Source of the DNA: Nitrospira sp.
GTDB lineage: Bacteria; Nitrospirota; Nitrospiria; Nitrospirales; Nitrospiraceae
DNA length: 47,788 nt
Direction: 5' to 3'
Assembly: GCA_024998685.1 (NCBI GenBank)
Contig: JACOEH010000010.1
Location: 1-47,788, forward strand
Shown: piece by piece, positions 43,496 through 47,788 of the stretch
How the letters are laid out: each line of letters begins with the position of its first letter
Position numbering within the stretch: position 1 is the first letter of the stretch
Translations under genes and position numbers: made by a program
The notes under the pieces: generated by a model
Told to the model about the DNA's origin: nothing
What the model saw: only the letters and a program-made list of their open reading frames with translations
Database searches by the model: none

Positions 43496-44674
43496 ATGGA
43501 TCGCCATATTGCCTGTCTCCAGATCCCCGCTTTCAGGATCGCACTGGCCCGTGCTGCTGATAGCGCGCTGCGGAACCGACCGGTGGCCGTCGCACCACTG
43601 CATACGCCGCGCGCATTGATCAGAGAGATTTCCACCGACGCGTTTCACGAGGTCCTACAGCCGGGGATGCCGGTTGATCTTGCGCGGCTGATCTGCCCTG
43701 GTCTGCGGATGATCTCTCCGGATTCGTCACTCACGCAAGCCGCCCATCGCGAGCTGCAACACCATATCTCATCTTTTGCACCGGCTTGGGAATCAATCAG
43801 GCCTGGTTCGCTCTTCCTGGACCTTACCGGCACAACTCGACTCTTCGGTCCTCCCCTCGATATAGCGACCCGCATCAGTCGAGAGTTGAGCCATCAGCAG
43901 GGATGGCCGAGCACGATCGGATTGGCGGGAAACAAGCTGGTCTCGCAACTGGCCGCCGCCGCACTCACGAAACCATCCCAAGTGTTGTCGATCCACTCCA
44001 GCTGTGAGCAACCGTTCCTTGCTCCATTGCCGACCATGTTGCTGCCCGGCCTTCACCGAGCCCATACCTCACGGGTTTTACAGCGGCTAGAGGATTTAAA
44101 TCTCCTTACACTTGGCGCCATCGCCTCCGTGCCGTTGGCTTATCTACAAGCCGCCATCGGCCCTCCAGCCGGGTTGCTCCACGACTGGGCCATGGGGATC
44201 GATCCTTCCCCGGTACACCCGCCGATCGCACAGCCGATGATGGAACGATCCATTCCCCTCGATCCCGATGAAGTCGACGATCGGCTCTTGTTGGGACGGC
44301 TATACCGATTATTAGGGCAGCTTTGCGCTGCCCTGCGGCAACAGCAACGGATGTGCCGGCACATCTCGCTGACGGTTCGCCATAGCGACCATGTCGAGCA
44401 GACTGCTCAGGAGACGCTGCCTCACGGCACCTACTGGGAGATCGATCTCCAACCTGTGCTGACAGCCCTGTTCTACCGATGTTTCCGTCGCCGGGTGCGT
44501 CTCACACGGTCGATGCTTCAAGTCGGTCGGTTGGAATCGCCGGCTCGGCAACTTTCGCTCTTCAAGTCGGAATCCGTCGTGCTTCCCCGCTCTCACCGCC
44601 GCTCGCTGGCTCTGGATCAGGTTCGCGCAAAATTCGGCGAACAAGCCCTCTCCTGGGGAAGGACGTTACGATGA
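43496..44674 (+). CDS. imuB: ImuB-like Y-family polymerase homologue (probably non-catalytic)
   Basis: This 392-residue protein has the Y-family fold but lacks catalytic carboxylates: the N-terminal motif reads HIACLQIPAF instead of a D-x-D/FF motif, and the second reads LFLDLTGTTRLFG without the D-E pair. A helix-hairpin-like region (LLPGLHRA, LEDLNLLTLGAIASVP) follows. A beta-clamp-binding motif QLSLF is seen at 352-356. Such ImuB proteins bridge the clamp and DnaE2 in mutagenic SOS repair. It is shorter than typical ImuB (about 480), losing the C-terminal part. No imuA/lexA gene or clear LexA box is seen upstream. The stop overlaps the next ATG. Confidence 0.82.
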   Translation: MDRHIACLQIPAFRIALARAADSALRNRPVAVAPLHTPRALIREISTDAFHEVLQPGMPVDLARLICPGLRMISPDSSLTQAAHRELQHHISSFAPAWESIRPGSLFLDLTGTTRLFGPPLDIATRISRELSHQQGWPSTIGLAGNKLVSQLAAAALTKPSQVLSIHSSCEQPFLAPLPTMLLPGLHRAHTSRVLQRLEDLNLLTLGAIASVPLAYLQAAIGPPAGLLHDWAMGIDPSPVHPPIAQPMMERSIPLDPDEVDDRLLLGRLYRLLGQLCAALRQQQRMCRHISLTVRHSDHVEQTAQETLPHGTYWEIDLQPVLTALFYRCFRRRVRLTRSMLQVGRLESPARQLSLFKSESVVLPRSHRRSLALDQVRAKFGEQALSWGRTLR

Positions 44675-45625
44675 CGGCTCCCCCCTTCATACATCTCCAT
44701 GTCCATTCCGATTATTCGCCGATGCGCGGCGTGTCTTCACTGGACGAGCTTTGCACTTCAGCTCGGCAGCAAGGAGCGCAGGCCATGGCCTTGACCGATA
44801 CAAACGGATTGTACGGAGCGATCCGTCTTGTCGAGCAAGCGAAGCAACTGGGGATCAGGCCGATTCTCGATGCTGAGCTGACGACTACTGATCATCGGGC
44901 GGTTTTGCTGGCTAAAATACCGGATGGGTATGCCAACCTCTGTCGTGTGCTATCGGAACGGCATTGCAGCTCTTCGTTCGAATTTTTTGCGTCAGTCTCG
45001 CGTTATCGAGCAGGTTTGATCATCTTCACGGACGACAAAACGGCGCTCATGGCCTGGGTCAAAGACTCGCGGCAAGACCTCTAGGTCGAGTTGATGCCGG
45101 GCCCCTCAATGCACGACTCCCTCTTCTTGAGCCGCCGAATCAATCTCCCACCTGTCGCCACCAATCGCGTGTACTTCTCCCGTACGGATGGCTTCGTCAC
45201 ACATCGCCTGTTGCGTGCCACTGCCGAAAGAAGCTTGTTGTACGCCTGGACAATGGCTGGTGCCGCCCGCGCTCATGGCATCCCAGTTTCCTCATGTTCC
45301 GGATGCGCTGGAGAACACCATCCGCATTGCCGAAGCTTGTCACAGCGACTGGCGTTTCGGCGAGACAATCTTTCCGGCCTTTCGCCGGCTGACCGATGAA
45401 GAAGCGTTTTTGACGCTCAAAGACAAAACCTATGCCGGCGCACAAAACCGATACGGTTTCATCACACAAGAAGTTCGTGACCGGATTGAAAAAGAGCTGG
45501 CGATCATCCGAGAAAAACGCTTCGCTCACTATTTTCTTGTCGTGGAGGAGATCGTCACGGCATTAAAACGGACCACCTGCGGCCGCGGTTCGGTCGCAGC
45601 CTCAATCGTTTCGTACTGTCTTCAT

Positions 45626-46076
45626 CCTGAATCCGGCGTGAAAATGATGACTTCACAGTTTGAGTCTCTCGATCTGCTGGAGCGCATGCTTCCAAGCCGT
45701 CTCGCTCGGCCCACTCGCAGGCAATGCCAAGCTGGGCCGGTTCCCCACTCGACGCAACTGGGCCGGCATCAACAGGATCTTGTTGCGGAGGGTCTGCAGC
45801 GTGGCTGCCTGAAACTCCGGCGGAAGGCAGAGCCGCTTGTCGAGCGAGGCTGGTTTTGAAGCCAATTCGCGATAAGAACCGATGCAGGAGGTAGACGCCG
45901 CCGTAATGCGTCAGCGTCGTGGCGCCAAACCTGATCGCGAGCTTCCGAGGTCCTCGGGCCATCGCACGGAAAGCTACCGTTTCGGTAGCTTTCGTTCAAG
46001 CCCCCTTTCCTCAATTTTGAGGGCCACAGAATGCGTCGGAGGGAAGATCTCACGATGGAGTCACGCCGGATTCAAG
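45626..46076 (-). mobile_element. Non-autonomous IS1380-like mini-element inserted in dnaE2
   Basis: The ends are 16-bp inverted repeats with one mismatch: CCTGAATCCGGCGTGA (45626-45641) and the complement of CTTGAATCCGGCGTGA (46061-46076). They are flanked by a 5-bp target duplication TTCAT (45621-45625 and 46077-46081). The 451-bp interior holds minus-strand remnants of a transposase: an N-terminal piece (TTLTHYGGVYLLHRFLSRIG) and, in another frame, the C-terminal piece (TLRNKILLMPAQLRRVGNRP), joined by a deletion near 45845. The pieces resemble IS1380-family transposases. An 11-bp perfect hairpin (45969-45979 / 45983-45993) precedes the transposase start. Removal with one TTCAT copy restores the dnaE2 frame. 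Confidence 0.85.
45653..45962 (-). pseudogene. IS1380-like transposase remnant with internal deletion
   Basis: From 45962 the minus strand reads MARGPRKLAIRFGATTLTHY and continues to about KTSLARQ. Near 45845 the reading must change frame to reach LCLPPEFQAATLQTLRNK and end at KHALQQIERLKL (45653). A full-length transposase would need roughly 300 more residues between these pieces. Transposition therefore must have been driven by an intact relative in trans. Confidence 0.7.
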
Positions 46077-47788
46077 TTCATATCACCCATGTCGATCCGA
46101 TCACGCATCACCTCTTCTTCGAACGGTTTCTCAATCCTGGCCGGAAAGACCCACCGGACATCGATATCGATTTTGCATGGGACGAGCGCAACGACATTTT
46201 GAAATGGGTGTTCGAGCAGTACGGCGAGCGCCAGGCCGCGATGGTGGCGAATCAGAACAACCTCGGCTTCCGGGCGGCCATTCGTGAAGTCGCCAAGGTA
46301 TACGGCATGCCGGCTGAAGAAATCGGCAGAATATCTTCACGGGTTGTGCGTCAAAAAGATCTTCTGGGATTTTCTGCTCCACCGACCAATGAACAATGGC
46401 TCTATCGGCTGTCACACATCCTACAATTGCACGCCCCTTGGCCTGAGATCCTTGCCCAGGCGCTGAAGGCACAGAACCACTTCCGCCATCTTTCCATGCA
46501 TTGCGGTGGAGTCGTCATCGTGCCGGAGGAAATCCGGCGCTATGTGCCGGTGGAATACACAGCCAAACGCTTACCAGTCATCCAGTGGGAAAAGGACCAG
46601 GCAGAGGACGCGGGGCTCGTGAAGATCGATATCTTGGGCAACCGGTCGCTCGCTGTGATCCGAGATGCGCTCGCGGCCATCGTCAAACATACGGGGCCGA
46701 ATGATCGACTACGCCACCTGGGATCCGCTCAACGATGCCGCCACGCAAGATGCGATCCGACGCGGTGACACAATCGGTTGCTTCTACATCGAATCACCCG
46801 CCACCCGCCTTTTGTTGAGAAAGCTGTGGATCGGTATGCCCCCACACCGTCGCGCGGAGGCCGATGTCTTCGACTATCTCGTCATAGTCTCGTCACTCGT
46901 CCGGCCCGCGACCAATCCCTTCGTCGAAAACTTTATTCGAAGAGCGCAAGAAGACTCATGCGCGATCTGGCATGACAAGCTGCGGGGTATCTTGGACGAA
47001 ACTCATGGCATCATGACCTACCAGGAAGACGTCTCGAAGGTGGCGATGGCTCTGGCCGACTTTTCCATCGATGATGCCGACCAGCTCCGAAAAGTGTTGA
47101 GCAAGAAACACAAGGCCAACCAGTTACAGGATTACCGCGTCCAATTCTTTCGCGGTGCAGAGCAAAACAGAGTACCGCTCGGGACAATCAAGCAGATCTG
47201 GGAAATGATCATGAGCTTTGCCGGTTACAGTTTTTGCAAACCTCACTCGGCGAGCTATGCCCAGGTGTCATTCAAGTCCACCTATCTCCGCACTCACTAT
47301 CCGGCGGAATTCATCGCCGCCGTCATCAGCAATCAGGGCGGATTTTATTCGACCTTCGCATACATCTCTGAAGCCCGACGCATGGGATTGGCCATCCTTC
47401 TGCCAGACATTAACGAGAGCGATTGGGCCTATTGTGGTGAAGGTGAGCGGCTGCGGATGGGCTTGATGCAGGTGAAGACGATTCCGAAAAAACTCGGCGA
47501 GAAAATCGTCGAAGAACGCACACAAAATGGTCCGTATCAGTCATTCCAAGACTTTCTTCGGCGTGTGAAGCCGGAGTCGTCCCATGCCAGAGCATTGGTT
47601 CGCGCCGGCTGCTGTGATTTCATCGCCGGGGAGCTGACAAGGCCGGCCTTGATGTGGCGGATGTATGCGGGAAGCGATTTCGCCTCAAGTCCCTTACCGA
47701 TTCCGGACGACTATTCAGCCGCTCAGAAACGAGCCCATGAGATCGAATCGTTCGGCTTTCTGGCCAGCCGCCATCCTCTGACCCTCTA

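Follow-up and report, generated by a model that had tools for sequence, protein, structure and literature searches.

The window analysed here, 47,788 nucleotides of Nitrospira sp. contig JACOEH010000010.1, raises the question of what interrupts its dnaE2 gene at positions 45626–46076, and whether the intruding sequence was already in its present, shortened form when it arrived. The 451-bp sequence is an internally deleted element of the IS1380 family with clean marks of insertion, and we regard it as almost certainly a non-autonomous derivative of an IS of roughly 1.44 kb which entered dnaE2 by transposition. The preliminary description of this locus had read it as IS1380-type, internally deleted and inserted by transposition, and to that extent it stands; its further claim, that the deleted form itself had moved in trans, is not sustained, the deletion junction being single-copy.

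Terminal repeats and target site

The element is bounded by two terminal inverted repeats, identical at 15 of 16 bp when compared on opposite strands: CCTGAATCCGGCGTGA (45626–45641, forward strand), which adjoins the C-terminus of the transposase, and CTTGAATCCGGCGTGA (46061–46076, reverse strand), which lies upstream of the transposase start. Directly outside them on the forward strand are two copies of TTCAT (45621–45625 and 46077–46081), the second abutting the right end of the element. The window holds four exact 14-mer inverted pairs spaced 200–1500 bp apart, and only that of the element has an identical 5-mer at its flanks. Among 100 first-order Markov resamples of the window, 34 such pairs arose and none showed a duplication, defined in this control as an identical 5-mer within 0–5 bases outside both arms.

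Fused at a single TTCAT, the flanks read the dnaE2 codons YCLHITHVDP in continuous frame, and the fusion aligns gap-free to 22 of 22 related Nitrospira dnaE2 loci (L044–L065, the best matches besides the window itself), that is, to an uninterrupted empty site in every one. The inverted ends, the 5-bp duplication and the join YCLH-ITHVDP continuous with the polymerase frame had all been remarked upon in the preliminary description; the coordinates of ends and duplication prove exact to the base, and its proposal to look for empty sites in relatives is answered by these 22 loci. Scanning 45600–46100 for promoters and terminators gave no match. An Rfam snoRNA match within 45500–46200 fell below threshold (20.8 bits against 45 required) and was taken as chance.

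The dnaE2 pseudogene

The host gene was identified as dnaE2 through PF07733 matches on both flanks of the element. It occupies 44671–47788 on the forward strand, running on to about 48,212, and is a pseudogene with four lesions relative to its homologs. Upstream lies an imuB-like gene for a Y-family polymerase (43496–44674, forward strand; PF00817 and PF11799) with an uninterrupted frame of 392 amino acids. The element together with its duplication adds 456 bp, a multiple of three, yet introduces three stop codons into the dnaE2 frame. The other lesions are a TAG at 45082–45084, where the ten relatives displayed have TAC or TAT, and two that emerge on alignment with 21 relatives (all but L054): a loss of 26 bp after 45220 and the gain of a single base at about 46693. 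These three rule out the insertion as the sole cause of the loss of dnaE2. The final part of the gene remains in a single frame as far as the stop codon near 48,212.

Compared with locus L048, the window copy has 83, 45 and 222 changes at the three codon positions over 896 codons and the L044 locus 94, 39 and 206 over 947; since the two patterns are close, decay of the window copy was probably recent. The genome carries a second imuB-dnaE2 pair on contig C7 (L112), which is uninterrupted and specifies a DnaE2-like protein of 1010 amino acids. A further DnaE homolog, in an open frame of 1165 amino acids on contig C46, is probably the replicative DnaE1.

Transposase remnants and full-length relatives

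Two pieces of a transposase gene remain within the element, both on the reverse strand, and no intact transposase frame is present. The C-terminal fragment (45653–45839) lies in an open reading frame of 70 amino acids matching PF13701 [5e-5, 22.1 bits] and NF033539 [IS1380; 0.002, 16.7 bits], both below the curated cut-offs. The N-terminal fragment (45840–45962, start codon at 45962) matched no family in the profile search and aligns nonetheless to full-length relatives. The preliminary description had reported transposase end fragments joined by a deletion; these are real but short, and weak if taken alone.

The identity of the element is settled through its relatives. Following the suggestion that full-length relatives with the same ends be sought, we found four (L103, L105, L029 and L035), each measuring 1444 bp between its ends. 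Their transposases are of 444 amino acids (L103) and 433 amino acids (L029, L105 and L035). The two which were scanned against profiles, those of L103 and L029, proved to be IS1380 transposases, with 273.9 and 290.3 bits against NF033539 (cut-off 180), and also passed PF13701; those of L105 and L035 share 78 and 77 % identity with the L103 protein in one joint alignment. Window positions 45626–45839 align to positions 1–215 of these relatives and the remainder to about 1208–1444, the right arm being recognisable by BLAST from about position 1224 of L103. Roughly 990 bp, about two thirds of the IS, are therefore missing at a junction lying within 45823–45856; the exact breakpoint is uncertain because the direct parent is absent from the assembly.

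The nearest full-length relative shares only 72 % identity with the element across its 451 aligned bases. Matches to the element occur in 6 of 395 genomes of the phylum at E ≤ 1e-8 and in 4 of 59 genomes of the relatives set at E ≤ 0.001, the genome under study being counted in both. Seven relatives retain both ends, of which four have exact 5-bp duplications (in L035, L027, L105 and L034; the sequences are ATTAA, TTGAT, TTGAA and TATAA), one has a duplication that is off by a single base and two are without a match. The approximately 16-bp inverted repeats, the 5-bp duplication and the ends of the transposase are features which the element shares with the IS1380 family at large (NF033539, PF13701; for example IS1247, ISPme1 and ISEcp1). 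It differs from them in having no working transposase and in the size of its deletion. For IS1247 an inverted repeat of 16/13, a 5-bp direct repeat and a length of 1672 bp are given (PMC3281130).

Further copies in the same genome

A search of the genome for the 16-bp ends, as had been recommended, revealed five further occurrences, each at the end of a contig. Left ends are found on C39, C27 and C17 and right ends on C43 and C100. The portions of the element that they contain measure 48–82 bp, four of them being 100 % identical and that on C17 99 %. The longest run shared with another copy up to the contig end is 55 bases for C39, C27 and C17, and 53 bases for C43 and C100. A second set of IS1380-like ends, CCTGAATCCTGCGTGA, occurs at the ends of five other contigs (C21, C36, C59, C90 and C99), again with longest shared runs of 53–55 bases. 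Runs of such length would presumably remain at the border of an unresolved repeat if the assembler had used k = 55. Another sequence, CCTGAATCCTGCGGCG, lies near the starts of C13, C24 and C91 and also at C58:51037; it may be the other end of the CCTGAATCCTGCGTGA set, or a third set.

The contig-end copies are probably longer than 451 bp, that is, full-length, for the assembler resolved the 451-bp copy and not these. Three left ends imply at least three further insertions of this family in the genome; there would be four if every duplication is exact, because both right ends show TTGAA, which is seen at one left end only. C39 and C43, a left and a right end that both show TTGAA, were considered as the two sides of one insertion. 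When their flanks were joined and compared with 79 genomes of the genus (own genome included, at most nine candidates scored per genome), 58 genomes matched and no listed match spanned both halves. Similarly, the stretch of G023 which matches C43 had no match to the C39 flank.

The parent IS itself is not in the assembly: a search of the genome with the transposase at E ≤ 1e-20 gave no match, and PF13701 had only three matches, on C35 and C49. A search of the contig collection yielded 17 relatives, at most 76 % identical to the first protein of the query.

Short derivatives in other Nitrospira

Shortened forms recur in the family. Genome G012 contains a 192-bp mini-element (L034 1371–1562, G012:C3:753648–753839) that retains both ends and the start-codon hairpin seen in the window element and is flanked by a TATAA duplication, as well as a 784-bp derivative (L027) with both ends and an exact 5-bp duplication. 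A search of six genomes for the 192-bp form gave one complete copy and nine partial matches. None of these derivatives shows that the deleted form in the window has transposed. Degenerate remnants of the element in G012 and G017 (L030 and L028) adjoin what is seemingly the same gene, and are perhaps an old shared insertion.

MITEs and other non-autonomous IS derivatives are short, retain both ends, are flanked by a target-site duplication and lack an intact transposase, and the window element agrees with them in all of these respects. MITEs are expected in many copies. Here, in contrast, one copy with this junction is seen in the assembly, that of the window, the contig-end copies being assembled at their ends only. 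The suggestion that the element is “essentially a MITE” is accordingly not sustained, the junction occurring once in the assembly and no second copy being found in the genomes, IMG/VR or plasmids searched. A many-copy MITE finds no support, given the single-copy junction, the absence of an exact junction from IMG/VR and the absence of a match to the element in plasmids. The element is of a known kind and an ordinary case of it; that it is a MITE moved in trans is one possibility.

Origin of the deleted form

As to mechanism, the DDE transposase of an IS of about 1.44 kb would have recognised the two 16-bp termini and brought about insertion at the AT-rich 5-bp target TTCAT in dnaE2, thereby yielding the 5-bp duplication. 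At that time the element may already have been deleted, or it may have been full-length and lost its middle afterwards. Whichever the order, the loss has left nothing of the transposase gene but its two ends, and movement would now be possible only with transposase from elsewhere. The odds between these two histories are close to even.

That a full-length copy entered dnaE2 and was deleted there, the mini form never having transposed, we consider about an even bet. Tolerating three mismatches still gives a single occurrence of the junction in the genome, and no second copy was found among 58 and 394 other genomes (overlapping sets). The exact junction is likewise absent from IMG/VR and the plasmid collection gave no match to the element, own-genome records possibly having been left out of both searches, and even the 192-bp derivative of G012 is complete only once in the six genomes searched. 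Nothing speaks directly against this history, although a donor mini copy could have been lost or left unassembled, and the ends and duplication fit either order. A somewhat less than even chance is given to the mini form having arisen elsewhere and been carried into dnaE2 in trans, in MITE-like fashion, by a full-length IS. The derivatives of 192 and 784 bp in G012, each retaining its two ends and flanked by an exact 5-bp duplication, argue for such movement, and the additional insertions with the same ends make a source of transposase within the genome likely; if full-length, those copies would presumably be able to move the element. Against it stand the single-copy junction, the lack of any donor copy seen and a full-length source that is not assembled.

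It might be objected that a short-read assembler had misjoined two IS ends and unrelated flanks, the more so as contigs of this genome do stop at IS1380 ends, roughly one 55-mer beyond the point at which the copies last differ. We hold this to be very improbable, for both flanks are dnaE2 and join without a gap in 22 of 22 relatives, an identical 5-bp duplication lies on either side and the junction sequence is unique in the genome. Insertion of an IS1380-family element by transposition remains the preferred explanation, whether the deletion preceded or followed it.

A hairpin before the transposase start codon

On the reverse strand at 45969–45993 the element contains a perfect 11-bp hairpin with a 3-nt loop; 6 nt separate it from the transposase start codon. 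Scoring covered 16 elements (the window, L103, L105, L029, L115 to L125 and L127) over the interval −60 to +6 relative to the start, with 200 mononucleotide shuffles each; for L119, L121, L122 and L124 the start was the first matched codon or a guessed one. In 12 of the 16, no more than 4 % of shuffles equalled the best hairpin, and its end fell between −6 and +6 (window, L103, L105, L029, L116–L118, L120, L123–L125 and L127), the test failing in L115, L119, L121 and L122. Among 23 IS1380-like loci of the genus that are more distant, with the start set at the first ATG in the longest frame, not one passed both tests: in L097 the hairpin lay at 0.025 of shuffles and ended at −24, while those of L095 and L096 did end at the start, with shuffle fractions of 0.08 and 0.085.

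Covariation was assessed on 12 loop-aligned hairpins, namely eleven of the twelve above (without L123) and the 192-bp derivative. Pairing is present in 106 of 132 stem cells (layers 2–12), whereas 2000 column shuffles averaged 78 and reached 91 at most. The count overstates the case in that the hairpins were chosen for pairing, the register was set by hand and the rows are related. The hairpin is kept in the two shortest derivatives, the window element and L034. Stems resembling it are present in L033 and L030; the best stem of L027 in the stretch examined is another.

Inverted repeats over the translation start region are known from IS10 and IS50, where they may hold back translation from read-through transcripts. 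Such a repeat is common to those elements and this IS1380 subgroup, whereas that of the subgroup is known from pairing and covariation alone. It is conceivable, if rather doubtful, that the compensated hairpin acts as a brake on translation of read-through transposase message or as a site bound by transposase, and that short derivatives have kept it because it is still important. By analogy with IS10 and IS50, the likeliest role would be that of a translation brake on read-through transcripts. Literature searches for transposase mRNA with hairpins and read-through, and for IS1380 combined with MITE and nonautonomous, returned no match, whereas those for IS1380 with miniature inverted-repeat transposable elements or with stem-loops did list papers; we do not claim that either these hairpins or IS1380 MITEs are unpublished.

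Significance

In Nitrospira, the locus stands as a clean and documented case of an IS derivative that is non-autonomous. It lies in one of two imuB-dnaE2 mutasome loci of this organism, of which one has decayed and the other is uninterrupted. Multicopy IS1380 elements are able to fragment a short-read assembly, and the hairpin at the start codon offers a testable regulatory feature of the IS1380 subgroup.
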